IMG/VR virus record: IMGVR_UViG_3300036861_001106
Location: 1-64,000 of that record
DNA from: a virus
Length of the DNA: 64,000 nucleotides
Strand: one strand, 5' to 3'
Shown here: one piece after another, positions 1,070 through 54,269 of the stretch
Layout: each line of letters begins with the position of its first letter
How positions within the stretch are numbered: position 1 is the stretch's first letter
The notes under the pieces: generated by a model
What the model saw: only the letters and a program-made list of their open reading frames with translations
Database searches by the model: none
Told to the model about the DNA's origin: nothing
Program-made: the position numbers and the translations under genes

Positions 1070-1489
1070 ATGATTGGACCGCTGGCTTGCTGTGCGTCTA
1101 GCTATGAGCGTTGCCGGACGTGCGGTGGGTTCATTGCCTACGAACACTGCGTTGACTGTGGGAGGGCTGCGCTGCCTGCTACCTCTGCGCCTGCTTCCTC
1201 GGCTGCTTCCTCGGCTGCTTCCTCGTCTGGCTCGCCAACTCAAGGGGGTGGCGTGGGCTCACCTGCTGTCTCGTCTGCGTGCCCGATGTGCGGGACGGCG
1301 GTGGTGGGGGCGTGCTGCCCGCGGTGTGGGCTGCCGGCTGCGGTGCCGCCTGCGCCGGCGGTGCCCACGGCGGGGGCTGCCCTGCCCGCGGCACAGGCTG
1401 CTGCCCCGGACGTCAGTGCCTGCTGTGGGGTGGCGTGGTTCCTGTGCGACGGGGTGCGGGTCTGTGAGGGGTGCAGGCTGCGGTGCTGA
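1070..1489 (+). CDS. Multi-zinc-ribbon protein with low-complexity linkers
   Basis: A protein of 139 residues with three Cys-rich modules: CRTCGG with CVDCG near the N-terminus, CPMCG with CPRCG in the middle, and a C-terminal module SACCGVAWFLCDGVRVCEGC. Ala/Ser-rich and Pro/Ala-rich linkers connect them. The C-terminal module recurs in the genes at 3538, 4615 and, degenerate, 5220. The ATG at 1070 follows TAGGAGGT at seven bases. Its stop codon lies inside the first copy of the tandem repeat at 1481-1722. It is the only rightward gene in a mostly leftward block. The function is unknown; nucleic-acid or protein binding is the usual role of such ribbons. Confidence 0.65.
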   Translation: MIGPLACCASSYERCRTCGGFIAYEHCVDCGRAALPATSAPASSAASSAASSSGSPTQGGGVGSPAVSSACPMCGTAVVGACCPRCGLPAAVPPAPAVPTAGAALPAAQAAAPDVSACCGVAWFLCDGVRVCEGCRLRC

Positions 1490-1554
1490 CAAAGAGAGCC
1501 CTGCGGCACCGGTGGTGCTGCAGGGCTGACGACAAGTGACGATCACGAAAGCAC
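1489..1554 (-). ncRNA. Candidate small RNA B (tandem unit 1)
   Basis: A predicted leftward transcript of about 66 nt starts near 1554, a few bases after the -10 box at 1561-1566, and ends after a hairpin at 1497-1527 (14 pairs on the plus strand, one mismatch when read on the minus strand) followed by CTCTTTGT. The 5' part differs from the neighbouring copy while the hairpin and tail are kept. No open reading frame of note lies inside. This is inference from promoter and terminator geometry. Confidence 0.5.
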
Positions 1555-1560
1555 AATCTG

Positions 1561-1591
1561 ATTCTACCGGGTTGGAGGCGCAGAGTGTCAA
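1561..1591 (-). promoter_or_regulatory. Leftward promoter of candidate small RNA B
   Basis: On the minus strand TTGACA (1586-1591) is followed by TAGAAT (1561-1566). The spacer is 19 bases, longer than the 17 of the sister promoter, so it may be weaker. Confidence 0.5.
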
Positions 1592-1611
1592 GTGCTTTAC
1601 CTCGGTGCTGA

Positions 1612-1675
1612 CAAAGAGAGAGCCCTGCGGTGCCTACAGCACCGCAGGGCTAACAAGAAGGTAAGCAGACGTGAT
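1612..1675 (-). ncRNA. Candidate small RNA A (tandem unit 2)
   Basis: A predicted leftward transcript of about 64 nt starts near 1675 and ends after a perfect 13-pair hairpin (arms 1621-1633 and 1639-1651, five-base loop) followed by CTCTCTTTGT. The stem differs from that of copy B at several positions but stays paired. It lies 41 bases past the stop of the last gene of the leftward operon and has its own promoter. Confidence 0.55.
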
Positions 1676-1681
1676 AGTCTG

Positions 1682-1710
1682 ATTCTACCGGGCTGGCGGT
1701 GGGTTGTCAA
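1682..1710 (-). promoter_or_regulatory. Leftward promoter of candidate small RNA A
   Basis: On the minus strand TTGACA (1705-1710) and TAGAAT (1682-1687) are separated by exactly 17 bases, a near-consensus sigma-70 promoter. It sits just past the stop codon of the gene at 1716-1865 and points away from any protein gene on that strand until 876. Confidence 0.7.
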
Positions 1711-1715
1711 GCGCC

Positions 1716-1865
1716 CTACTTCGGTGGGTAGCAGCCCCACCCGACGGTGGGGGCCTTCCGCGCCTCCAGCTCCTGGAGGGTGAGGTGGCGGGCCTCACCC
1801 TGCGCCTCCGCCGGCGGCGTGACCTGCCGCTCCCGGCGGAGGAGCTTGCGGAGTAGTGCTCTCAA
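1716..1865 (-). CDS. Small basic protein, function unknown
   Basis: A 49-residue reading frame, too short for usual ORF lists. TTG at 1865 has GGGAGG with a seven-to-eight-base gap; an in-frame GTG at 1874 is an alternative. The N-terminal half is Arg/Lys/Leu-rich and likely helical (LLRKLLRRER). It is the last protein gene of the leftward operon, 28 bases after the gene at 1894. No known domain is recognised. Confidence 0.5.
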   Translation of the reverse strand: MRALLRKLLRRERQVTPPAEAQGEARHLTLQELEARKAPTVGWGCYPPK

Positions 1866-4372: not shown

Positions 4373-4401
4373 ATTCTACCGAAACTTTTGGCAGTTGACA
4401 A
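4373..4401 (-). promoter_or_regulatory. Leftward promoter of the zinc-ribbon operon
   Basis: On the minus strand TTGTCA (4396-4401) and TAGAAT (4373-4378) have a 17-base spacer. The -35 box overlaps the -35 box of the rightward promoter, so the two polymerases would compete. Confidence 0.8.
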
Positions 4402-7312: not shown

Positions 7313-9754
7313 ATGGCACTCTCACCGACCGGTCGCATCCCCAAGTTGCTGTGGTCGGAGCGCTGGCAGGACACGATTCAGCGCATGCGCACCGACAACC
7401 ACGTGTGGTGGCAGCTCCTCAAGGCCAACGCCGAGAAGACTGGCACCGCTGGCCAGCGGTACGGCGACACCGGCCTCTGGGCCACCATCATGTTCCAGGC
7501 CACGGGGGACAGCGCCTACGCCACCCGCGCCCTGACCCTGCTGCGGCCACTCCTCCTGGACACCGCCGTCAAGAGCGCCAACTGGACGCGCTCCAACGGG
7601 GCGGAGCAGGCACTCCTGTTCGACTGGCTCAACCCGGCGCTCACCGGCGCTGACCGGCAGCTCTACATTGCCGCCCTCAACCGGTGGGCTGACCAGGCGA
7701 CGACGAGCCAGTTCTCCCCTAACTTCCCAATCCGCACTGACGACTCCGACCAGACGGTGGGGAACTACTTCCAGTTCGCCCTGCTGGCGGTGGCCACTGC
7801 CGACGACAACCCGCGGGCGCAGGAGTTCCTGAACCGTTCCTACGTGGGGGGGCTCACCCCCACGGCTGCCGACCGCACCTCCCTGCGGAACGCCATCAGC
7901 GAGTACTGCACGAACCTGGCCGTCGGTGGCATGTGGCCGGAGAGCACGCAGTACAACCACGGCACGCTCTCGCTGCTCACCCTCGGCGTTGAGGCCCTGC
8001 GGCCAGCCACCGCCGTGGACTCCTTTCCCGAGGTCACGGCGCTGCTGCCCGCCCTCGCTGCGTCCCAGCTCTTTGAGGTCACGCCTGACCTGGCCCAGCC
8101 CTTCCAGTGGGGGGACAATGAGAACCCCCGTGACCTGCGGCTGTTCCAGTACGTGACCCTCCTGGGCATGCTGCAGGGGGCCACGCAGTCGAGCCCAGGG
8201 CCGGTGAGTGCCTACCTGACCAGCCTCATCGCTGACTTGGTGAGTCGATTCGGTGCCACCGGCTTTGGCTCGGCGGAGCCCTGGGCCCGGCTGTTCCTGT
8301 TCTACAACCCCTACCGGCTGTCAACTGATTGGCGCACTGCCCCCCGCACCTTCTTTGCCCCGGGGCAGGGCATCCTGATTCACCGCCAGGCGGACCAGCC
8401 GGTCACGGGTGCCCTGCTCGGGGCGCACTTCCGGCCCAGGCAGTCCCTGGTGGACCACCAGGTCAAGTACTTCGGGGACTTCCAACTGTACCGCCGTGGC
8501 GAGTGGGCGCTCACGCATCCGATCGGGTACCAGGGGCCGCCCAACCAGGGCGAGGGCACCAACACCATGCTGCACAGTGGGCTCTCAGCCATGGCGGAGC
8601 GGCAGGTCACGGCGCAGGAGTCGAGCAGGGATGGCGCCTACAGCTACCTTGCCGGCACGACGAGCGGTCCCTACTATGCACCGCCCTACTTCAGCGCACC
8701 CGCGTCGTTCATGGACGAGTGGACCCGGTCCCTGCTCTACCTGCCCGGCACGCCCGGCACGCCCGGCACGCCGGTGGGTGCCACCCCAACTGTCGTCACG
8801 CCCGACGTGCTGATTGTCCATGACCGCGTGAACAGCACGCCGATCCGGGCAGTCGACCTCCCGAGGTACCGCGGTGCTGACCAGGCCCGGATCAAGGCAG
8901 CCAAGCACCCGAAGGAGTGGATCATCCACGCGCCGGTCGCACCCACCGTCACCCTCCAGGGGCTGCAGTGGGTCACCACCAAGGGTCAACGGGTGGCGGT
9001 GGACACCCTGCTCCCACTGGGGCAGGAGCGGGAGGTCATCGACGAGGACACCCTGTGGACGGACACCTACCCCAACCCGGCCAAGTCGGAGCAGAAGTGG
9101 CAGGTGCGAGTTGCACCCACCGTGGACGTGCCGCTGGTGAACTTCCTGAACGTCATCCAGGTTGCCGACCCTGCCGGCAGTGGCACGGTGTTCCCTGCCA
9201 GGCTCGTGGGCGACGCTGACGGTGTGCTGGTGGGCGCCTTTGTCGCGCGGCCCAATCAGCAGGCGGTGCTGGCGTTCTTCCCTGCCAATGGACCAAACCT
9301 GCAGGCGACGCGCCTGACCATCCCGCTGAGTCTCCTTGACGAGCGGCAGGTCGACGCCTACGTGGCTGGAATCGACGTCACGCAGGACTGGTTTGCGGCG
9401 GTGGATGGGAGGTTGGTCACGCCCCTGCGGATCTTTGGCTCCAACCTGCTGCGATTCAGCCTTGCGCTCAAGGAGGGCAGCCACACTCTTGAGCTGGGCA
9501 GTGCCGTGCGGTCCTTGACGTTTAAGCTCTTCGCCGAGGGGCTCACCGGTGGGACCAGTTTCTTTCTGGATGGTGAGCAGCGGTTGAGCTTGACCTTTCC
9601 AACCCTTGCAGAGGCCAAGGAGGTTGCTCAGCGTGCGGTGCGGCTGAACCCGCTTTTCACGCTGGTTGTGGAGGACTTGACCACGCCGGGCACTCGCCGG
9701 CTGCACAAGTACACGCTGGTCATGAACTACGCGGTGGAGGAGGTGCCCTTGTGA
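7313..9754 (+). CDS. Heparinase II/III-like polysaccharide lyase
   Basis: An 813-residue protein with two halves. The first about 335 residues are helical with Trp/Asn/Tyr-rich loops, as in the alpha-toroid of alginate and heparinase II/III-type lyases. From about residue 345 a beta-rich part contains APGQGILIHR, GAHFRPRQSLVDHQVKYFGDF and a short TPGTPGTPG linker, matching the heparinase II/III layout. Such enzymes cleave uronic-acid polysaccharides by elimination, and in phages usually act as depolymerases. ATG 7313 has GAGGAGGT at seven bases. No signal peptide is seen, and the gene lies far from the tail module, so its route to the outside is unclear. Confidence 0.6.
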   Translation: MALSPTGRIPKLLWSERWQDTIQRMRTDNHVWWQLLKANAEKTGTAGQRYGDTGLWATIMFQATGDSAYATRALTLLRPLLLDTAVKSANWTRSNGAEQALLFDWLNPALTGADRQLYIAALNRWADQATTSQFSPNFPIRTDDSDQTVGNYFQFALLAVATADDNPRAQEFLNRSYVGGLTPTAADRTSLRNAISEYCTNLAVGGMWPESTQYNHGTLSLLTLGVEALRPATAVDSFPEVTALLPALAASQLFEVTPDLAQPFQWGDNENPRDLRLFQYVTLLGMLQGATQSSPGPVSAYLTSLIADLVSRFGATGFGSAEPWARLFLFYNPYRLSTDWRTAPRTFFAPGQGILIHRQADQPVTGALLGAHFRPRQSLVDHQVKYFGDFQLYRRGEWALTHPIGYQGPPNQGEGTNTMLHSGLSAMAERQVTAQESSRDGAYSYLAGTTSGPYYAPPYFSAPASFMDEWTRSLLYLPGTPGTPGTPVGATPTVVTPDVLIVHDRVNSTPIRAVDLPRYRGADQARIKAAKHPKEWIIHAPVAPTVTLQGLQWVTTKGQRVAVDTLLPLGQEREVIDEDTLWTDTYPNPAKSEQKWQVRVAPTVDVPLVNFLNVIQVADPAGSGTVFPARLVGDADGVLVGAFVARPNQQAVLAFFPANGPNLQATRLTIPLSLLDERQVDAYVAGIDVTQDWFAAVDGRLVTPLRIFGSNLLRFSLALKEGSHTLELGSAVRSLTFKLFAEGLTGGTSFFLDGEQRLSLTFPTLAEAKEVAQRAVRLNPLFTLVVEDLTTPGTRRLHKYTLVMNYAVEEVPL

Positions 9755-10567: not shown

Positions 10568-10842
10568 GCCGAACAATCTGGAAGTACCCCCTCCCGGCTA
10601 AATACTACGGGGATTTTGAGCTTGAGCTGCCGGATGGCGCGGTTTTTCTGAGCCTTCAGGTTCAGCGCGGGGTGCCCTGTCTCTGGGCCATGGTGGATCC
10701 GAGTGCGCCCAAGGTGAGGGAGACCTTCAAGTGGTTGCTCACGGGGGATGAGGTGCCAACCGGCACTGACTGGGGCTACGTGGGTCTTGTTCAGCTCCAT
10801 GACGGTGGCCTTGTCGTGCACCTGTGGAGGATGTTCCGTTGA
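10564..10842 (+). CDS. DUF7352-like small phage protein
   Basis: A 92-residue protein reading TIWKYPLP, ELPDGAVFLSLQVQRGVPCLWA, then YVGLVQL and VVHLWRM. This start-to-end pattern is shared by a common family of small phage proteins of unknown role, for which I recall the DUF7352 label. TTG 10564 overlaps the previous stop region. Confidence 0.6.
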   Translation: MSRTIWKYPLPAKYYGDFELELPDGAVFLSLQVQRGVPCLWAMVDPSAPKVRETFKWLLTGDEVPTGTDWGYVGLVQLHDGGLVVHLWRMFR

Positions 10843-11825
10843 GCGCCTTCCTTGAGTCCCTGGTCCTGCCCGTGCTCACCGAGGCCACCGTCGCCGCCGC
10901 CATTGCCGCCGCCAGTGTGCGGGGGCGCGGGGACAATGACCTCGCGGACCAGCTTGCCACCGAGGCAATGCGGGAGGTCCTGAATGCACGCCTGCCCTGC
11001 GCCGCCGTCGTCGTCGCGGGGGAGGGGGGGCGCACCGACTCGCCGCGCCTGGAGGCGGGTGAGGAGCTTGGTCATGGTGACTTCAACGACCCCGTCCTGC
11101 AGCTCGTCGTGGACCCCCTGGAGGCGACCCGCTGCTGCGCCCGGGGGGAGCCGGGGTCCATCTCAATGCTCGCCGCCGCCTTCGAGGGGGAGGGCGCCTT
11201 CCACGTCGGCCCGGACACCTACCTGGAGAAGGTCGTGCTCGCCGCTGACCTGGCGGCGCGGCTGGATGTCCTGCGGCACCAGGTGGAGGTGCAGTTCCCG
11301 GACCAGGCCTCGCAGCACCTGCTTGACCTGCCGCTGTCCAAGGTCGTGGACTGGCTCGCCTGGGCGCGCCAGAAGGAGCGGGCGCACGTGACGACGATGC
11401 TCCTGGACCGGGAGCGCAACGTGCTGGCGATCAAGTTCCTGCAGGAGCTGAACTCCCAGGTGCGGCTCATCCGCGACGGGGACGCCGTGGCAGCCCTGCT
11501 GGCCCTGGACCGCACGAGTGGCGTGGATCTTGCACTTGGAATCGGTGGAGCACCGGAAGCCCTGATTGCCGCCGCCGTGACCCGCGTGTTCGGTGGGCAC
11601 GCCGAGTTTCGCTGGTGGGATGCGGCGAGTACCGGGCCGAAGCCAATCTACACTGCCGAGCAGCTTGCCTCGGGGCACGTCATGTTCGCGATGACCGGCG
11701 TGACCAGCAACGAGGTGCTGAGGGGGGTCAGGTATCGGCGTGGCCTCCCGGTCACGGATTCAATCTGCGGAAGTAGCCGCACTGGCGTGATTTCACGGAT
11801 TGAGCGGGAGGTGCATGTCAGGTGA
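10839..11825 (+). CDS. glpX: Class II fructose-1,6-bisphosphatase (GlpX type)
   Basis: A 328-residue protein, close to the usual length of GlpX enzymes. It shows GRGDNDLAD (29-37), the GEG loop (61-63), DPLEAT (92-97, usually DPLEGT) with the conserved Thr, GPDTYLEK (124-131), a LLDRERN segment near 190, IRDGDAVAAL (211-220) and GIGGAPEA (234-241). The family removes the 1-phosphate of fructose-1,6-bisphosphate, and in some photosynthetic bacteria also acts on sedoheptulose-1,7-bisphosphate, in gluconeogenesis or the Calvin cycle. TTG 10839 overlaps the previous stop and has GGAGG eight bases upstream. In a phage it would be an auxiliary metabolic gene. The Gly-to-Ala change next to the active site and GGRTDSP in place of GERDEAP should be noted. 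Confidence 0.75.
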   Translation: MSAFLESLVLPVLTEATVAAAIAAASVRGRGDNDLADQLATEAMREVLNARLPCAAVVVAGEGGRTDSPRLEAGEELGHGDFNDPVLQLVVDPLEATRCCARGEPGSISMLAAAFEGEGAFHVGPDTYLEKVVLAADLAARLDVLRHQVEVQFPDQASQHLLDLPLSKVVDWLAWARQKERAHVTTMLLDRERNVLAIKFLQELNSQVRLIRDGDAVAALLALDRTSGVDLALGIGGAPEALIAAAVTRVFGGHAEFRWWDAASTGPKPIYTAEQLASGHVMFAMTGVTSNEVLRGVRYRRGLPVTDSICGSSRTGVISRIEREVHVR

Positions 11826-12644: not shown

Positions 12645-12654
12645 GTGATTGGCT

Positions 12655-12684
12655 GGTAGGTAGGCGAATATTTGCCTACCTACC
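12655..12684. other. Perfect inverted repeat ahead of an HNH gene
   Basis: The arm at 12655-12665 (GGTAGGTAGGC) is the exact reverse complement of 12674-12684, with an eight-base AT-rich loop. It lies 14 bases before the ATG at 12699. It could end the previous transcript, bind a regulator, or fold over the HNH ribosome-binding site. Confidence 0.7.
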
Positions 12685-12698
12685 AACAAGGAAGTAAA

Positions 12699-13205
12699 AT
12701 GGCAGGGAAAAGGGGTGTTCGAGGAGGGGCTCCTCAAAGCGTCGGCGATCTTTTGCTCAGAATTTCCATTTTGGAGTTTGATGAAACGTCAGAACGGCAT
12801 CCATCTTGCCCAAAGACAGGTTGTTGGGCAATCGATATAAAGCCTGCAAAGAATGGCTACTGCCAAGTACGAGTCAGTGGCGAACGAGGTCCTGTTCACA
12901 GGTTTGTTTATGAGTACTTTGTTGGAGCAGTGCCTGAGGGGAACGATCTGGATCACCTTTGTAGGAATCGGAGCTGCTGCAACTTCGAGCACTTGGAATC
13001 CGTTTCACGGCAGGTCAATCTGCTTCGGGGCAAAACGGTCACTGCTCGAAATGCCGCCGCAACTCACTGCCCACAGGGGCATCCTTACTCCGGGGATAAT
13101 CTTTACCTCTGGACCAAGAAGGGGCACCGGTTCTGCAAAGTTTGTCAGCGCGCTAACCAGTTGCGTCAGCGGGCTCGTAGGCGCGCTCTTCGTCAGCAGG
13201 ATTGA
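12699..13205 (+). CDS. HNH endonuclease, recently acquired
   Basis: A 168-residue protein with NDLDHLCRNRSCCNFEHLE (HNH core) and CPQGH with CKVCQ (zinc pair), the same architecture as the HNH gene at 137. The coding region is clearly poorer in GC than its neighbours, a sign of recent transfer. ATG 12699 follows AAGGAAG. It sits between two exported-protein genes without breaking either, as expected of a free-standing homing endonuclease. Confidence 0.85.
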   Translation: MAGKRGVRGGAPQSVGDLLLRISILEFDETSERHPSCPKTGCWAIDIKPAKNGYCQVRVSGERGPVHRFVYEYFVGAVPEGNDLDHLCRNRSCCNFEHLESVSRQVNLLRGKTVTARNAAATHCPQGHPYSGDNLYLWTKKGHRFCKVCQRANQLRQRARRRALRQQD

Positions 13206-13745: not shown

Positions 13746-14141
13746 GTGGTCACGCTGGCGTCCGTGAGCCCAGTCCCTGCCAAGCCTGTCCTCACCCGTG
13801 CGGAGCTGCTCGTGGCAGCCCGCGCCGCCGCCGCGTGGCCGCTGGGCTGCAACGCCGCCACGCGGTGGTTCAGCAGTCCTCAGGCTGCAGCCGCCTGCAG
13901 CTACCCGCACCCGGTGCAGGTGGCGCTGGCACGCCGCTGGGGCTGCCCTGCCGTGGCGGTGACCGCCTACCGCGGTCACCTCCGCGGCGACCCAACCGTC
14001 CCATGGCCCGAGGTGTGGGCGGTGCAGGTGGTCCTCATTGCCCTGGTGCGCGTGGGCGACCTGCGCCTCAATGAGGCACTGACCCAAGTTCCAGCGCTGG
14101 TGGCGCAGGTCCTGCAGGACCTGGCTGCTGCCCAGTGCTGA
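13746..14141 (+). CDS. Hypothetical Ala-rich protein
   Basis: A 131-residue protein starting at GTG 13746, which has GGAGGAGG seven bases upstream. It is rich in Ala, Val and Leu with Cys and Trp scattered and likely mostly helical. There is no signal peptide or known motif. Confidence 0.5.
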   Translation: MVTLASVSPVPAKPVLTRAELLVAARAAAAWPLGCNAATRWFSSPQAAAACSYPHPVQVALARRWGCPAVAVTAYRGHLRGDPTVPWPEVWAVQVVLIALVRVGDLRLNEALTQVPALVAQVLQDLAAAQC

Positions 14142-14166
14142 CGACAAGTGCGAAAGGACAAGAACC

Positions 14167-14706
14167 GTGCGAATCAAAGCTGTGCTGCTGGCCGTGTTTG
14201 GTCTCCTCTGCATGCTCACTGCGCCACGCGCTGAGGCGAACACCTACGGGACCTGGGGCCTCTATGGCGACCGCTACTGGCAGGTGATGGCGAACGTGAT
14301 AAACCCCCTCAATGGGGCCACCTACACCACCTATGGGGGCACTTACGTGTACGTGCCACACAGCGGCAACTACGAGAACCGACTGCAGAACTCGAATGCG
14401 GAGGGGATGAGTCCCCACTTCTACACCCTGGTCGGGAGCCTTCAGCGGTACGACCGCGGTTTTGCCTACTGGCGCTACTTCAACGACGAGATTCGCGGCT
14501 ACACCCAGCCGTCGCAGCCGCAGGCAGCCTGGAGTGTCTACGGCTGGCGGAACCCGCCAACAGACAACTACTGGGACTACGTCTCCGTCAGCCCGCCGAA
14601 CACCTGGAACCTCTGCGATGCCATCACACACGCGACCGACCATGCCATCGGCTACGTCTCGCGTAGCATCTCGGAGCGCCAGTATTACAAGACGATAAGG
14701 CAGTAG
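14167..14706 (+). CDS. Exported Tyr/Trp-rich protein
   Basis: A 179-residue protein with a signal peptide (VLLAVFGLLCMLTA, cleavage near AEA at residue 24; a lipobox-like Cys precedes it). The mature part is rich in Tyr, Trp, Asn and Gly (WGLYGDRYWQV, YTTYGGTYVYV), as in carbohydrate-binding or envelope proteins. GTG 14167 follows GAAAGGA. No family is recognised. Confidence 0.55.
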   Translation: MRIKAVLLAVFGLLCMLTAPRAEANTYGTWGLYGDRYWQVMANVINPLNGATYTTYGGTYVYVPHSGNYENRLQNSNAEGMSPHFYTLVGSLQRYDRGFAYWRYFNDEIRGYTQPSQPQAAWSVYGWRNPPTDNYWDYVSVSPPNTWNLCDAITHATDHAIGYVSRSISERQYYKTIRQ

Positions 14707-16005: not shown

Positions 16006-16632
16006 TTGAAGCTGATAACGCCAACGACCCTGACGCCGCACGAGGAGGAGGCGCACCTCCGTCAACTTGCGGGCCTCATCAACGAGGCGGTGCGGGTGTA
16101 CCGCCGGAAGCTGCCCGAGGGTATCTCAACCGAGGAGCTGCGGGGGGAGGTGCAACTGGCTGTGCTGCAGGCCGTGCGGACCTGGCGCCCTGACGGCGGG
16201 GCCTCCCTGGAGGTGTGGTGTCGGCTGTTGATCAAGCGTCACCTGCAGCACAGTGGGCGCAAATTCATCTGCAGCGTCTACCGGGGGTGGGGTGTCGCTC
16301 GGTTGGCAGCAGGGGACTTACCGGTGACGCTGTCCCTGGATTCGCCTCACGCACCTGGGGTCGATGGTGACGAACGAACTGTGGATGACTTCATCCCAGT
16401 GGTTGAGGACGTGGCCACCGTGGTCCTGGCGAAGGTCGAGGCTGAGCGGATCCTGGCGCTCGTGCATCGGCTTCCTGTGCAGCAGCGCAGCGCGGTGGTG
16501 CTGCGCTTTGGCTTCGACGGGGCAGGCATGCGCACCCAGGCGGAGGTGGCCGCACTCATGGGCGTGTCGCAGATGGAGGTGTCCCGGCGGCTGCGCCGGG
16601 CCCTCCAGGACCTGCGGTCCAGCTTGGAGTAA
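16006..16632 (+). CDS. Sigma-70 family RNA polymerase sigma factor (1 of 3)
   Basis: A 208-residue protein. The N-terminal half holds a divergent region 2 (STEELRGEVQLAVLQAVRTW, then ASLEVWCRLLIKRHL). The C-terminal part is a good region 4 with HTH: RSAVVLRFGFDGAGMRTQAEVAALMGVSQMEVSRRLRRAL in two pieces. It would direct RNA polymerase to phage promoters. TTG 16006 has GGAGG seven bases upstream. It is followed within five bases by a second sigma gene. Confidence 0.7.
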   Translation: MKLITPTTLTPHEEEAHLRQLAGLINEAVRVYRRKLPEGISTEELRGEVQLAVLQAVRTWRPDGGASLEVWCRLLIKRHLQHSGRKFICSVYRGWGVARLAAGDLPVTLSLDSPHAPGVDGDERTVDDFIPVVEDVATVVLAKVEAERILALVHRLPVQQRSAVVLRFGFDGAGMRTQAEVAALMGVSQMEVSRRLRRALQDLRSSLE

Positions 16633-16636
16633 CGTG

Positions 16637-17239
16637 ATGATCACCGCGGACGATGCTCTCGTGCGCGCCCATGAGGGGCTCGTGCAGCAGTGCGTGAACA
16701 ACCACCAGTACCTCCTGTCCCCGTACCTGGAGCGCGAGGACCTGGTGTCAGCGTGCTACCTCGCACTGCTCCGCGCGGCGCGCCTGTGGAACCCAGAGTA
16801 CAACGTCAAGTTCAGCACCTACGCGGTGACTGCCATGCACAACGCCTGCATTCAGGCGCGGCAGCGGGCCATGCCCTCTGGGTTTCGTGGGCGCTTCGCG
16901 GCGGCTGAGTTTCCGCAGGTCTACTCGCTGGACCAGCACGCGCGTGACGAGGACGGTGAGGACCTGGAGAGCCTGCTGATGGCCCCCGATGACCCGGCGG
17001 GGCAGGCGCTACAGCGGGTCAGCCAGAGTGAGGTGCGGCAGCTCGTGCGGGCGGTGCTCGCGGCTCACCCCACCGAGCTGCGGGTGATCGAGCTGGCGTT
17101 CGGGCTCGTCGACGGGGTGGAGTGGCGGGGGCGGGACATCGCGCGGCACCTCAGGCTCTCCCGCACCGCCGTCAGCTCGGCGCTGCACCGGGCGCTGGCA
17201 CGGCTGCGCCGGTCCCGGGAGTTGGAGGTGCTGCGGTGA
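16637..17239 (+). CDS. Sigma-70 family RNA polymerase sigma factor (2 of 3)
   Basis: A 200-residue protein. Region 2 is classic: YLEREDLVSACYLALLRAARLW, then NVKFSTYAVTAMHNAC. Region 4 follows at the C-terminus (ELRVIELAFGLVDG, GRDIARHLRLSRTAVSSALHR). ATG 16637 lies three bases inside an alternative GTG; GGAG is seven bases before the ATG. It and the previous gene are adjacent but diverged, so not a fresh duplication. Confidence 0.8.
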   Translation: MITADDALVRAHEGLVQQCVNNHQYLLSPYLEREDLVSACYLALLRAARLWNPEYNVKFSTYAVTAMHNACIQARQRAMPSGFRGRFAAAEFPQVYSLDQHARDEDGEDLESLLMAPDDPAGQALQRVSQSEVRQLVRAVLAAHPTELRVIELAFGLVDGVEWRGRDIARHLRLSRTAVSSALHRALARLRRSRELEVLR

Positions 17240-18583: not shown

Positions 18584-18612
18584 TTGACACTTGCCTGCCA
18601 TCCCGGTAACCT
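18584..18612 (+). promoter_or_regulatory. Strong rightward promoter
   Basis: A perfect TTGACA (18584-18589) and TAACCT (18607-18612) lie 17 bases apart. The transcript would run into a terminator after about 64 nt. Confidence 0.8.
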
Positions 18613-18618
18613 CAGGTT

Positions 18619-18682
18619 GCTCACTAATCTTCACTGACGGACACCGTTGCCGCAGCCCCCTGGGGCTGCGGCGCCTTTTTTC
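18619..18682 (+). ncRNA. Candidate small RNA or attenuator (about 64 nt)
   Basis: Between the promoter and the gene at 18693 lies an eleven-pair hairpin (18649-18659 with 18662-18672, closing pairs probably open to form a loop) followed by GCC and seven T. This is a strong terminator only 30 bases after the predicted start. Either a small RNA is made, or the element is an attenuator that sets how much polymerase reaches the gene at 18693 and the third sigma factor. Confidence 0.6.
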
Positions 18683-18692
18683 TGGAGGACCG

Positions 18693-19010
18693 ATGGACCT
18701 GACCTGGCCAGCCTTCGCGCAGTGGCTGCGGAGCCTCCCGCCGGACAAGGCGGTGGGCCTCGCGGGCGGTTCCTACCTGCACCCCTTCGCGCTCTTCGTC
18801 TCCAGCCTCCACGGTGGGCGCGACACCTACGTGTGGTGCGCGGCGGGGAGCATCTACGTGTGGGTGCAGGGCGACGACCTGCCCTGGTATCTGGAGGAGC
18901 CCAGCGTGGTGGCGGGGCTGCCAGCCTTCAACGACCTCCTGGTGCCACCGGAGCCGCTGCGGGCCGTCACGGCTGGGGAGTGCGTGGCAGTGTTGGACCA
19001 GTTGGGATGA
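18693..19010 (+). CDS. Hypothetical protein upstream of sigma 3
   Basis: A 105-residue protein with several Trp residues and a middle beta region (DTYVWCAAGSIYVWV). ATG 18693 has TGGAGGA directly after the attenuator-like hairpin. Its stop overlaps the start of the third sigma gene (ATGA), so the two are co-translated; a partner or antagonist of that sigma factor is possible but unproven. Confidence 0.6.
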   Translation: MDLTWPAFAQWLRSLPPDKAVGLAGGSYLHPFALFVSSLHGGRDTYVWCAAGSIYVWVQGDDLPWYLEEPSVVAGLPAFNDLLVPPEPLRAVTAGECVAVLDQLG

Positions 19011-33151: not shown

Positions 33152-36100
33152 TTGCCCTACGCCAGGACCAGCGAGCTGCCAGAGGGTGTCAAGGGTGCCC
33201 TGCCGAAGCGGGGTCAACGCATCTTTCGCGCTGCGTTCAATGCCGCTCACCGCACCTACGGTGGCAATGAGGAGCGGGCCTTCAAAGTGGCCTGGGCGGC
33301 GGTGAAGCGCGTCTTCAAGAAGAAGGGTGGCAAGTGGGTCAAGGCCAGCCAGTCTGATCTGACCACCCAGCAGCTCCTCCTGGACACGCAGCGGCTCTAC
33401 CAGGAGCACTGGCGCCGCAACCCCGAGGCGCTGCCTGCCCAGCGCACGGTCAACGACCTGCTGGCGCAGGTGGCAGCCAACCCGACACAGGACTTGCGAC
33501 TCCTGCGGCAGCTTGAGGGGCTCGGTGTCCCGTACTTTGACTTCGAGGCGCTTGTGCAGTCATACGCGAATCCAATGCCGTGTGCGCCTCACACCGATGA
33601 CTTTCCCGGCTCCCTGGACCACCGCATCCGGCGGGTGTGCTGCGCCGTGCGGGATGAGGGCGACGAGTACCTGGGCGAGTACGGGTACGTGCTGGCAGTC
33701 TACCCCAACTTCGCCGTCTGCTGCTCCCTGGACGAGGGCGATGAGGACACTGACTACTGGAAGGTTGACTACACGTTCAACCCGACGACGTTTGAGGTGG
33801 CACTGGGCGACGCCCAGCCGGTCGAGGTCCTGACCGTCGTGGTGCCGCATGAGGGGGAGGCGATGGAGACACCAGAGCGCGAGGGCCTGAACATCGGCGG
33901 GACTCAGACCGTGGTCGACCAGGAGGCCAAGTTCAAGACCGACAACGGTCAGCAGTTCTCCCGAGGTGCCTACCTCATCATCGGCGACCCTGACCTCCCC
34001 TCGACCTGGAAGGTGCGCGTGGAGGAGACGCCGGGCAAGGTGACGGTGCCGCAGCTTGGGCGTGCCTACGCAGCCCTGACCAAGGGCTTTCGGGGCAACA
34101 AGGTTGCAGCCTCCGGCGGTGACAAGTCGGCGGCGCTGGGCAAGCTCAAGTCGCTCTACAAGTCGCACGACGCCGAGTGGCCCGGTGACAAGCAGAGCGT
34201 GGCGCCTGACCTCACGGGGGCCTTGAACCAGGACCCCCAGTGGACCACCACGCCCACCTGGCTGGCCCAGGGGCAGCCGCCGCCGGGCGGGGACGAGGAC
34301 CTCGTCCAGACCTGCGCGCTTGAGCTTGAGCAGGTGGAGGTGGACAAGCAGACGGGAGTCATGCACATTCGAGCCTGCCTCACCGTCGGGAACGTCCTGA
34401 ACGCCATGGGGGAGGTCTACCCGACGCAGGTGTGGGAGGACAACCTCCCCTTCTTGCAGACAGCCGCCGAGCAGGGGGCGCTCCTCGGCGAGTCCAACCA
34501 CCCACCGCCGGGTGAGTCATCCCTGGACCGCTCCTGCATCCTCTGGGATGAGGTGTGGCTTGAGGGTGACCGGCTGATGGGCGCTGGTCGCGTGCTGCCC
34601 ACGGTGCCCTCTGGGCAGAACCTGCAGATGCTCCTGCAGCACGATGCCAAGGTGGACGTCTCCTCCCGGGGCAAGGGCACGCGCAAGCAGGGCGACTGGG
34701 TCAACCCCACCACCGGCGAGCGGTACCAGGATGCGTTGGTGATCCAGCGTGGGTACCGCTGCCGCACATTCGACGCTGTCGGGTCCGGCGCCTCGCCGGG
34801 CGCGACCATCACCACGCACGAGATGGCGCAGCAGGCCGACCTTACTGCTGAGGAGCACGACATGAAAGAGATCGAAACCCTGTCGCAGCAGGTCCAGGCG
34901 CAGGCTGCGACCCTCGCGCAGATCACCGAGACGCTGGCGAAGCTTGCCGCACCCCCGCCCGCCCCGACACCCCCTGCGGCGGGCGCTGCCACCGCCGCGC
35001 TGGATGTCCCGGTTACCGCACCAGCCACAGCAGCACTGCAGCAGGCAGCCCCGGACTTCGTGGCTACCCTCACCGCGGTGGCTGCGCAGCAGGAGCGGAT
35101 GATGCCCCTCCTGCTGGAGGAGCGCAAGCGGCAGCTCCTGGAGCAGGCGCGCACGGAGCACAAGCTCCCGCAACAGTGGCTCAACTCCTACCGCAACATC
35201 CTCAACGAGGGGCAGTGCAAGTCCATCGCGGAGCTGGAGGCGCACTCCGAGCGCATGCTGCCGGCGGTGCTCTCGATGTACAAGGAGCGCCCGCAGTTGG
35301 CGCACGGCTTCCAGGTCCAGCAGGACCCTGGGGAGCGCCCTGGCCCGAAGACCCCCCGGCAGATGATTGACTTCCTGGTCAAGGACGTGGACGACACGGT
35401 CCTCTACGACCCACAGAGCTTCATCCGGCAGGATGATGAGACAGGTGCGCCGGTGCACGCACCCGACTCGGTGAAGACCCGGCGGCGCCAACTGCGGCAG
35501 ATCCTGCTGAACATCGCCCAGCACCAGGATGACAACTGGAATGGCCCTGCTGCGCTGACGGCGTTTGTGCGGCTCTACCAGGGCTACGACCCCATCCAGG
35601 TCAAGGATGCATGGATGGACCAGGCCTGCGCTGACTGCACCACCTCGGTGGCAGCCGGTGGCGCGCCCTCCAGCGCGCTGTTCATCTTCCCGCTGGTCCG
35701 GGCGGTCTACCCGCAGCTCATCGCGCCGGAGATCGCCTCTATCCAGCCGATGGACCGGCCTGACGGGCGCATCTTCTTCCTGAATGCGTTCCGGTGCCCA
35801 GTGCCGGGCATGGACGTGGTGGACCAGTCGGGGGCCACGATCTCCAACCGGATGTTCATGGACCGCAGCTCGTCCTTCAGCTCGTCCTTCGCGGATCGCG
35901 CGGCTGAGTGCGACGAGGCGGCGAAGATCCAGCTCCGGCTGGCCTCCGTGTCGGTGACGGCGACGACCAAGGCCCTCACCTCCATCAACACGATTGAGGA
36001 GCTGCAGGACCTGCGGGCCTACCATGGGCTGGACGTGAACACCGAGCTGATGTCAGCCCTCTCCCGGGAGATTGCCCTGGAGTGGAACCTCACCGTGCTC

Positions 36101-36646
36101 AACGAGATGGTCGCGGGCGCCACGGCCAGCGCACGCTTCTATGGCACCAACGCTCCCACTGGCTACACGCAGAAGGAGTGGGCGGAGTACCTGCCGCGCT
36201 ACATCGACGCGGTGAGCATGGACATCTTCTCCAAGCGCCACGGCAACGCGACGCACGTCATCGCCGGGCCGCAGGCCATCCTCCGGTTGGGCGCAGCCTA
36301 CCGGCAGCCGGTGCAGCCGACGGGGGTCAATCCGCAGGTCTACCCCGGCCTGGCCGTGACGCCCTGGCTGGCTGGCACCAGCGCTGACATCAAGGTCTAC
36401 CAGACGAGCTTCTGGACAGGGGTGAACCAGAACACCATCCTGGTCATCCGCCGGGGTGCCGACTGGTCGGACACGGGGTACGTGTTCGCCCCCTACATCG
36501 ACTACATCGCGCCCCTCCTGACGCTGCCGGACACCTTCACCCAGAAGCAGGGTGTGATGTCCCGTGCAGCGCACCGGGTGGTCGTGGGTGACACCATGGG
36601 CACCATCACCATCGTGCCGGGTGACACCGGCGTTGAGGTGCCGTAG
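33152..36646 (+). CDS. ChaB domain-prohead protease-scaffold-major capsid polyprotein
   Basis: An uninterrupted 1164-residue frame. Residues 7-66 are a ChaB-type domain (LPEGVKGALPKRGQRIF, VAWAAVKRVF, GGKWV). Residues about 160-350 hold two unassigned segments. Residues about 385-570 match T4 gp21-like prohead proteases, with the active His in GESNHP (446-451) and Ser in SSRG (504-507). A coiled-coil and Pro/Ala linker follows (571-730), then a T4-like capsid protein to the end (LVRAVYPQLIAPEIASIQPMD and the C-terminal strands). Normally these are separate genes. TTG 33152 has AGGGGG upstream. ATG 34862 (residue 571) has its own GAGGAG and could give a scaffold-capsid product without the protease. 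Confidence 0.8.
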   Translation: MPYARTSELPEGVKGALPKRGQRIFRAAFNAAHRTYGGNEERAFKVAWAAVKRVFKKKGGKWVKASQSDLTTQQLLLDTQRLYQEHWRRNPEALPAQRTVNDLLAQVAANPTQDLRLLRQLEGLGVPYFDFEALVQSYANPMPCAPHTDDFPGSLDHRIRRVCCAVRDEGDEYLGEYGYVLAVYPNFAVCCSLDEGDEDTDYWKVDYTFNPTTFEVALGDAQPVEVLTVVVPHEGEAMETPEREGLNIGGTQTVVDQEAKFKTDNGQQFSRGAYLIIGDPDLPSTWKVRVEETPGKVTVPQLGRAYAALTKGFRGNKVAASGGDKSAALGKLKSLYKSHDAEWPGDKQSVAPDLTGALNQDPQWTTTPTWLAQGQPPPGGDEDLVQTCALELEQVEVDKQTGVMHIRACLTVGNVLNAMGEVYPTQVWEDNLPFLQTAAEQGALLGESNHPPPGESSLDRSCILWDEVWLEGDRLMGAGRVLPTVPSGQNLQMLLQHDAKVDVSSRGKGTRKQGDWVNPTTGERYQDALVIQRGYRCRTFDAVGSGASPGATITTHEMAQQADLTAEEHDMKEIETLSQQVQAQAATLAQITETLAKLAAPPPAPTPPAAGAATAALDVPVTAPATAALQQAAPDFVATLTAVAAQQERMMPLLLEERKRQLLEQARTEHKLPQQWLNSYRNILNEGQCKSIAELEAHSERMLPAVLSMYKERPQLAHGFQVQQDPGERPGPKTPRQMIDFLVKDVDDTVLYDPQSFIRQDDETGAPVHAPDSVKTRRRQLRQILLNIAQHQDDNWNGPAALTAFVRLYQGYDPIQVKDAWMDQACADCTTSVAAGGAPSSALFIFPLVRAVYPQLIAPEIASIQPMDRPDGRIFFLNAFRCPVPGMDVVDQSGATISNRMFMDRSSSFSSSFADRAAECDEAAKIQLRLASVSVTATTKALTSINTIEELQDLRAYHGLDVNTELMSALSREIALEWNLTVLNEMVAGATASARFYGTNAPTGYTQKEWAEYLPRYIDAVSMDIFSKRHGNATHVIAGPQAILRLGAAYRQPVQPTGVNPQVYPGLAVTPWLAGTSADIKVYQTSFWTGVNQNTILVIRRGADWSDTGYVFAPYIDYIAPLLTLPDTFTQKQGVMSRAAHRVVVGDTMGTITIVPGDTGVEVP

Positions 36647-38169: not shown

Positions 38170-38591
38170 CGAACTGCTGCGCGGACCTGTGGCGCCAGCG
38201 CCTCCTTGCCCTGGCCACCACCTGTGGGTGCGGCGCTGAGTCCGTCACCACGACGTTCACGCTCTACCGGCGCACGCTGAACGACCCGCTGGCACCGCCG
38301 CGGGATGACATCGGGCTTGAGCGCCGCCCGATCCTGCAAGACTTTGCGCCGATTCTGGTTGACGAGCCCTGCGTCTTCGCCGGGGTCAACCCGAAGCAGG
38401 ACCGGTGGAACGTCGCCCCGGAGGGGCAGCAGCAGACCGAGCTGGTGACGCTGTACACGGGTTTTCAGGACATCCGTGAGGGTGACAACCTGGTGCTGGC
38501 GGCGGACGGGAAGAGCTACCTGGTGGAGGCGTCGACCTACGTGGGGCCGTTGCGACGGTGCTTCCTGAACAGCTCGAAGGCACAGCTCTGA
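38166..38591 (+). CDS. Probable head closure or stopper protein
   Basis: A 141-residue protein with an N-terminal Cys cluster (NCCADL, CGCG) and beta-rich remainder (TELVTLYTGFQDIREGDNLVL, YLVEASTYVG), as in small head-closure proteins. ATG 38166 overlaps the previous stop. Its stop lies within the inverted repeat at 38581-38613. Confidence 0.5.
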   Translation: MTNCCADLWRQRLLALATTCGCGAESVTTTFTLYRRTLNDPLAPPRDDIGLERRPILQDFAPILVDEPCVFAGVNPKQDRWNVAPEGQQQTELVTLYTGFQDIREGDNLVLAADGKSYLVEASTYVGPLRRCFLNSSKAQL

Positions 38592-38667
38592 GGGTAGACC
38601 CCTCAGAGCTGTGGTCGAAGCCCTTCAAGCTCCCATGGCAGTAACGTGGAGGTCCGGGTCTAGAGTA
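38575..38667 (-). ncRNA. Candidate antisense small RNA
   Basis: A leftward promoter at 38674-38702 would start a transcript near 38667 that passes through about 50 bases of intergenic DNA and folds the 14-pair hairpin 38581-38613 at its end, antisense to the last codons of the gene at 38166. The tail after the hairpin is CCTTCG, not T-rich, so the 3' end is uncertain. Confidence 0.4.
38581..38613. terminator. Perfect 14-pair inverted repeat
   Basis: CACAGCTCTGAGGG (38581-38594) is exactly complementary to 38600-38613 around a five-base loop. It covers the stop codon of the gene at 38166. Without a T tract on either strand it is not a classic terminator but could act in both directions. Confidence 0.6.
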
Positions 38668-38673
38668 TGCTTA

Positions 38674-38702
38674 GTGATACCGGGATGGCCACTGAGTGTC
38701 AA
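38674..38702 (-). promoter_or_regulatory. Leftward promoter inside the structural module
   Basis: On the minus strand TTGACA (38697-38702) and TATCAC (38674-38679) have a 17-base spacer. It opposes the direction of all structural genes. Confidence 0.6.
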
Positions 38703-53295: not shown

Positions 53296-54269
53296 ATGGC
53301 CGCTACCTTTCTCGTGGAACCAGCGTAACGGAGCGAGCGGCACGGCGACAGACCTCGGATCAAGCGGAAATTTGGCTTCAAGAAGTTGGCCCCTCGCGTA
53401 GGAATGCGTGAGTGAAAACGGCGTGAATTGCGGGAAGCCTACAGCGAAGGCCATGGTAATCCGCAGCCAAGCTCGACAGGGCACTGGTTGTCGAGAAGGT
53501 TCAGAGACTAGAGGGTGAGTCCCAACAATAAGCCCTCCACGAGCGCGCCGCACCCAGATCGGGTGATGAGATAGTCCAAGCATCGGGGAAACCCGGTGAA
53601 CTAGAACTTCAAGACCACGGACACGACGGGGATTGGAGATTACGCCGCGAATCCGGTCTCAGCCGGCTCGAACTCAATGGAAGTCGTACTGCGGATGCAC
53701 TTCACAGGGTCTGCGGCCCCTCCAGCCTGAAAGGGCTGGTCGTGATGGCGTGAATTCGGGGAAGCCTACAGCGAAAGCCATGGTAATCCCGACCCAAGCT
53801 CTCCAGGAATGGTGAGAAGGGCTAGAGACCAGAGCAAGTAGACGAGACCCGTCGAACGCTCCACGAGCGCGCCACACCCCTCGGGGTGATGAGATGGTCC
53901 GACACTCCGTGGAAACGCGGAGAGCCTTGGATAAAGAGCCAAGGTGTAACTGGTGCCTTCAACCGCATCGCCGACTTCCGATTCTGGCAATCGACGGCGT
54001 TCTCGCCGTCCACCGGCTTGCAGGTCTTCTGGTCCGGCACGCAGGTCATCTACCTGCAGCCGACCACCGGCACGTCGTCCATCGCCACGTCGTCCATCCC
54101 GACGACCGACCCTGGCACGGCGAACGTCAGCGTGGGTGGCTCCCTGACCGGATGCCTGACGACATCTGGTTTTACGGACCACATCTACCTTCAGCTCAGG
54201 ACTGCGTCCAACGCTGCGGCAGGTGACACATCGCTCGGAACTTTCACGGGCAGCTACACTGAGAACTAA
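53296..54269 (+). CDS. Small structural protein split by two group I introns
   Basis: Proposed exons are 53296-53315, 53631-53710 and 53947-54269, which join in frame to 140 codons. ATG 53296 has AAGGAGGTG seven bases upstream; the unspliced frame stops after ten codons. Exon 1 encodes MAATFLV, exon 2 IGDYAANPVSAGSNS and VVLRMHFTG, exon 3 TGAFNRIADFRFWQS and a Thr/Ser-rich remainder typical of small phage surface proteins. Exon 1 ends in the U of a U-G pair, and intron 1 can only end at G53630 to keep frame. The exact ends of exon 2 and start of exon 3 are less certain. Confidence 0.65.
53316..53630 (+). ncRNA. Group I intron 1
   Basis: About 315 nt. P1 pairs exon CTCGT with GCGAG (53333-53337), with the splice-site U on G. 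The core strings AATTGCGGGAAGCC (P), AATCCGCAGCC (Q), GTTCAGAGACTA (R) and GATAGTCC-like S element all occur in order. P4 is TGCGG with CCGCA, P7 pairs GACTA with TAGTC, and a P9 hairpin carries a GAAA tetraloop (CATCGGG, CCCGGTG). No reading frame of note lies inside, so it depends on an outside endonuclease for mobility. Confidence 0.8.
53711..53946 (+). ncRNA. Group I intron 2
   Basis: About 236 nt, closely related to intron 1 in its core (both hold GGCGTGAATT, GGAAGCCTACAGCGAA and GCCATGGTAATC). P4 is TCGGG with CCCGA and P7 GACCA with TGGTC, covarying with intron 1. P2 (CCAGCC with GGCTGG) and P9 (CTCCGTG, GAAA, CGCGGAG) are clear. P1 is short (GGGT with GCCC). The 3' end is placed at G53946; G53943, G53952 or G53955 would also keep frame. 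Confidence 0.75.

Follow-up and report, generated by a model that had tools for sequence, protein, structure and literature searches.

A duplicated promoter-to-terminator unit in an uncultured phage, the probable source of two short RNAs that agree at their ends and differ in the middle

In Enterobacterales, the small RNAs OmrA and OmrB are the products of adjacent duplicated genes; they are 82-88 nt long and have near-identical ends and a divergent middle, and in OmrA the divergent middle pairs with the ribosome-binding region of btuB (PMC12692685). Both RNAs are expressed and have been tested, Hfq is involved, and most of the pairing is done by the conserved 5' end (PMC12692685). Among phages, experimentally demonstrated short antisense RNAs include sar of P22 and c4 of P1 and P7, which act at ribosome-binding sites and keep a phage mRNA from initiating translation, and also OOP of lambda (PMC12197685). 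The non-coding RNAs of mycobacteriophages L5 and D29 are about 500 bp long, very abundant by RNA-seq and devoid of an evident stem-loop terminator; they lie near an early leftward promoter and were not assigned a function there (PMC5712189). Small RNAs of this kind are thus already known in bacteria and phages, and since they lack a reading frame, annotations of phage genomes seldom include them. We describe here a duplicated promoter-to-terminator unit in an uncultured phage; judged from its sequence, it is the probable origin of a pair of short RNAs whose ends are alike and whose middles differ.

The virus record comprises 109,530 bases, and the window analyzed here is its first 64 kb. Since the two ends of the record overlap by 29 bases, the genome, which has a GC content of 65%, is probably a complete circular assembly. 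The phage is distant from its known relatives, as its DNA polymerase is about 27-34% identical to the nearest ones in the collections searched, where no close relative was found. Two adjacent open reading frames (ORFs) at 16381-17239 match sigma-70 region 4 and region 2+4 and make up a sigma factor set of the phage, a single ORF (33152-36646) matches ChaB, a prohead protease and the major capsid protein consecutively, and the record has long near-perfect palindromes with arms of 16-19 bp (12652-12689 and genome positions 78511-78552) as well as a 63-nt direct repeat whose copies are 643 nt apart and 92% identical (genome positions 103230-103935). The phage also carries a gene for fructose-1,6-bisphosphatase (GlpX; 10839-11825), which as a clue to the host gave no genome matches. 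Planctomycetota were considered as the host, and a single promoter look-alike in a MAG was insufficient to name one, as were weak relatives of the protein encoded at 7313-9754 in 5 of 199 genomes of that phylum.

Two back-to-back units on the minus strand, A (1710-1606) and B (1591-1482), occupy the gap between two ORFs, one leftward and ending at 1716, the other zinc-ribbon-like, rightward and ending at 1489. They fill this gap exactly, with the stop codon of the leftward gene at 1716-1718, promoter A at 1710 and the rightward stop at 1489; the leftward operon runs from 4401 to 1716, and the gene facing it spans 1070-1489. A hexamer model calls no coding ORF in the gap, and a coding reading of the units was rejected, as the two copies have no TTG/GTG ORF in common. 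A preliminary description had held that nothing downstream on the minus strand would need such promoters, which is roughly right: a leftward zinc-ribbon ORF (882-667) lies there, followed beyond position 1 of the probably circular genome by a long leftward gene block, but two opposite-strand genes (1070-1489 and 139-670) intervene. The gene at 139-670 encodes an HNH endonuclease and has a promoter-like site of its own, and a second HNH-like ORF is found at 12708-13200. An AT-rich stretch just past the units (960-1025) contains several AGATTCA repeats and is a possible origin or operator.

Each unit reads, in order, TTGACA, a spacer, TAGAATCAGA, a leader, a GC hairpin and a U-containing tail, which confirms the tandem minus-strand arrangement of promoters, hairpins and tails that the preliminary description had placed here. 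In unit A, the promoter (1682-1710) consists of TTGACA at 1710-1705, a 17-nt spacer and TAGAAT at 1687-1682, in the extended form CCCGGTAGAATCAGA. It is followed by a leader (1652-1681) with a possible 5' hairpin (CAGAC-UAUCAC-GUCUG), a terminator-like hairpin of 14 pairs (1621-1651; -28.8 kcal/mol) and a tail (1606-1620; CTCTCTTTGTCAGCA) that reads CTCTCTTTGT after the hairpin and in which a weak U-tract is followed by the duplicated GTCAGCACCG. In unit B, the promoter (1561-1591) has TTGACA at 1591-1586 and TAGAAT at 1566-1561, and its 19-nt spacer, which the preliminary description does not mention, is suboptimal, being less favorable than the 17 nt of A; a promoter scan limited to spacers of 16-18 nt overlooked it. 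The leader of B (1528-1560) precedes a hairpin of 14 positions with one A.C mismatch (1497-1527; -24.3 kcal/mol) and a tail (1482-1496; CTCTTTGTCAGCACC) that reads CTCTTTGTCA after the hairpin. The leaders are 30-33 nt long and have a GC content of 43% (A) and 48% (B), compared with 65% for the genome. The RNAs fold with z scores of -6.0 (A) and -2.5 (B), and the hairpin pattern, which had been written from both copies, has a chance expectation of 0.00.

When the two copies are aligned, 83 of 117 columns are identical, and the identities are unevenly distributed. The -35 box (6/6), TAGAATCAGA (10/10) and the outer 5' stem (8/8) are unchanged, the outer 3' stem and tail match in 24 of 26 columns, and the spacer (12/19), the leader (14/29) and the inner stem with the loop (6/15) differ far more. 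Promoter boxes, outer stem and tail taken together are identical at 48 of 50 positions, and the three longest identical runs exceed those of shuffled columns (p 0.004). The segment earlier described as variable still aligns between the copies, at 14/29 identity, and the conservation claimed for the GC hairpin holds for the outer 8 bp but not for the inner stem. Reading of the alignment indicates that two inner pairs changed in a compensatory manner (T-A to C-G and G-C to A-T), one more changed on one side and another became A.C. The pattern fits selection on the promoter and terminator with the leader free or diversifying, relaxed and diversifying change of the leader not being separable from two copies. 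The alignment shows that, following the duplication, the leader diverged while the promoter boxes and the terminator were kept.

The promoter boxes of A and B look like the ordinary promoters of this phage. TTGACA-N15-20-TAGAAT occurs three times in the window and not at all in 100 shuffles. A promoter matrix yielded 13 sites of at least 19 bits in the whole genome, all of them outside called genes, against a best score of 15.3 bits in shuffled sequence, a result that is partly circular since the eight strong sites from which the matrix was built are all among the 13. Promoter A is the top-scoring site, and it also belongs to the training set. A plain consensus count gives much the same core list of sites. 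Most of the other matrix sites precede protein genes, examples being the divergent pair at 4395 (plus strand) and 4401 (minus strand) and the minus-strand site at 73366, whose -10 box is 6 nt ahead of the called ATG. At the level of sequence, A and B thus each have the promoter of their own that characterizes a trans-acting, base-pairing small RNA.

The hairpins of A and B point leftward, given that they are not followed by a T-run when read on the plus strand, and a simple terminator scan calls hairpin A a terminator. The sequence of each unit contains an intrinsic terminator placed to give an RNA of 50-200 nt, with U-tracts that are weak and fall short of the TTTTTT terminators near 18.5 kb in the same phage. 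Neither unit matches an Rfam family at the gathering score, and the sole Rfam match in the window is a group I intron elsewhere (53369-53598); a stretch that resembles it recurs about 330 nt farther along (~53759-53898). RNA polymerase would be expected to start a few bases past each TAGAAT and to stop at the hairpin and U-containing tail, and the resulting RNAs of about 65-75 nt would have the terminator hairpin in common but not the 5' leader, which would be mostly unpaired. We consider it likely that A and B are short RNA genes. The earlier proposal of two short RNAs with a common scaffold and different targeting ends is partly supported by the sequence, in that tandem, sRNA-sized units lie in a non-coding gap and show constraint on promoter and terminator but a diverged leader; the scaffold, however, is most simply, in the main, an intrinsic terminator. 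The targeting ends are plausible, and one suggestive site was found for them.

This candidate site is on the plus strand at 14137-14161, where the mRNA is complementary to the 3' part of leader B over 24 bases in stretches of 14, 6 and 4, interrupted by one 7-nt bulge and one mismatch. It is the longest such match, and it covers both the stop codon of the gene at 13746-14141 and the Shine-Dalgarno sequence (SD; AAAGGA) of the gene that begins with GTG at 14167 (14167-14706, plus strand), whose product has a signal-peptide-like N-terminus and no family match. None of 400 dinucleotide shuffles reached the score of the match (17.7), and 67 of 3000 random 36-mers from the phage (2.2%) reached 17.5, none of those 67 in a translation start region; as five leaders were tried in the target search, the match is a lead and not proof. 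Leader B thus has an unusually long Watson-Crick match at a phage ribosome-binding region, but the energies do not follow suit. The duplex energy of B at the 14167 site (-32.3) is no better than that of shuffled leaders, the site is outside the six best sites of B by co-fold energy, and the energy-based searches yielded nothing that clearly exceeded shuffled leaders. For leader A, the complementarity, duplex and co-fold searches gave no target above chance. The likeliest role of the leader would be that of an antisense sequence; B might cover the ribosome-binding site of the gene at 14167, and A might act on some phage or host RNA. That A and B act by base-pairing in trans is a tentative conclusion, which we hold at slightly below even.

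Looser versions of the arrangement, with a hairpin some 30-80 nt past a phage-type promoter, occur elsewhere in the genome. Unit C (18584-18681, plus strand) has TTGACA-17-TAACCT, a 33-nt leader, a GC hairpin (18646-18675) and TTTTTT; it is directly upstream of the gene at 18693, which has its own SD, and could be an attenuator. Unit D (38581-38702, minus strand) has TTGACA-17-TATCAC, a leader of about 60 nt and a 14-bp hairpin with no T-run, and lies in antisense orientation in a gap among rightward structural genes. In unit E (genome positions 81230-81384, plus strand), a strong hairpin likewise follows a promoter of the phage type; neither D nor E has a close gene on its own strand. Judged by eye, the hairpins of C, D and E show no evident resemblance in sequence to those of A and B, and a 7-nt pairing between B and unit E (CTTGTCG/CGACAAG) was attributed by rough count to chance. 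It is doubtful, in our estimate, that these form a modular antisense toolkit of at least five dispersed RNA genes (A, B, 18584+, 38702- and 81230+) with a common promoter type and hairpin end and different leaders, in which A and B would be the latest duplication.

An alternative, which we regard as unlikely, is that the units are promoter-proximal terminators subject to readthrough or antitermination, with the short RNA as a by-product and conditional readthrough to the leftward genes (882-667 and then across the circular junction). The late promoter of lambda works in this way, making a short RNA that ends at an intrinsic terminator soon after the start, with antitermination by Q leading into co-oriented late genes. 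A and B resemble it in having a promoter shortly before an intrinsic terminator, but no operon adjoins them downstream and no Q was identified in the phage. In its favor, the promoter and terminator of unit C immediately precede a gene that has its own SD, the leftward zinc-ribbon ORF (882-667) lies downstream of A and B and matches a Q-like antitermination family very weakly (PHROG_127, E 0.03), and the genome is probably circular, with the long leftward block beyond position 1. Against it, the two opposite-strand genes intervene, no antitermination protein could be convincingly identified, no alternative fold that would undo the hairpins is predicted, and the tandem copies with diverged leaders are left unexplained.

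We give the same low likelihood to a boundary element, in which tandem terminators with their own promoters end the leftward operon and either the firing promoters or the terminators separate converging transcription, the RNA itself being functionless. The exact fit of the units between the convergent genes speaks for this, yet a plain terminator requires no promoter, neither copy has lost any part of the boxes, and the hairpins have no T-run on the plus strand. It is less probable still that the RNA works through its hairpin instead of leader pairing, binding a protein or another RNA as a decoy or sponge, a class in which an anti-CRISPR RNA would also fall. No other part is as structured as the hairpin, and the changes in its inner stem are compensatory, but the U-containing tail that follows means that termination already explains it, and no Rfam family reached its threshold, the best, F6, remaining at 27.3 bits against a gathering score of 46. 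The least credible reading, and a very improbable one, is that there is no small RNA and that a duplicated terminator carries promoter boxes by chance, given an expectation of 0.00 and boxes that stayed unchanged in both copies while the leader diverged. The reading that we prefer as a whole, tandemly duplicated phage small RNA genes whose likeliest role is antisense pairing by the leader, has in our judgment not quite an even chance.

Searches of IMG/VR, INPHARED, Rfam and, by pattern scan, GTDB genomes gave no homologous promoter-hairpin unit. They covered phages, genomes and viral contigs, the last both with exact patterns and through the DNA polymerase and neighbor proteins, and the matches inspected proved not to be homologous units. 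Should they be expressed, A and B would offer a compact natural example of RNA gene duplication in which the pairing end diverged and the promoter and terminator stayed fixed. The phage that carries them has no close relative among the collections searched, and a direct test is offered by the 14167 site.

Of the systems described in other phages, the RNAs of L5 and D29 are like A and B in being non-coding phage RNAs, but they are some 500 bp long and have no evident stem-loop terminator. The nearest likenesses among phage RNAs are sar and c4. Both sar and OOP are made opposite their own targets; the gene on which B would act, in trans, is 12.6 kb distant. The nearest known likeness of A and B overall is the OmrA/OmrB pair, with its adjacent duplicates, near-identical ends and divergent middle. 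OmrA and OmrB are bacterial and we claim no sequence relation to them, and the conserved part in A and B is the promoter and terminator. By analogy, OmrA and OmrB indicate that a twin small RNA pair can work by pairing of its divergent middle.
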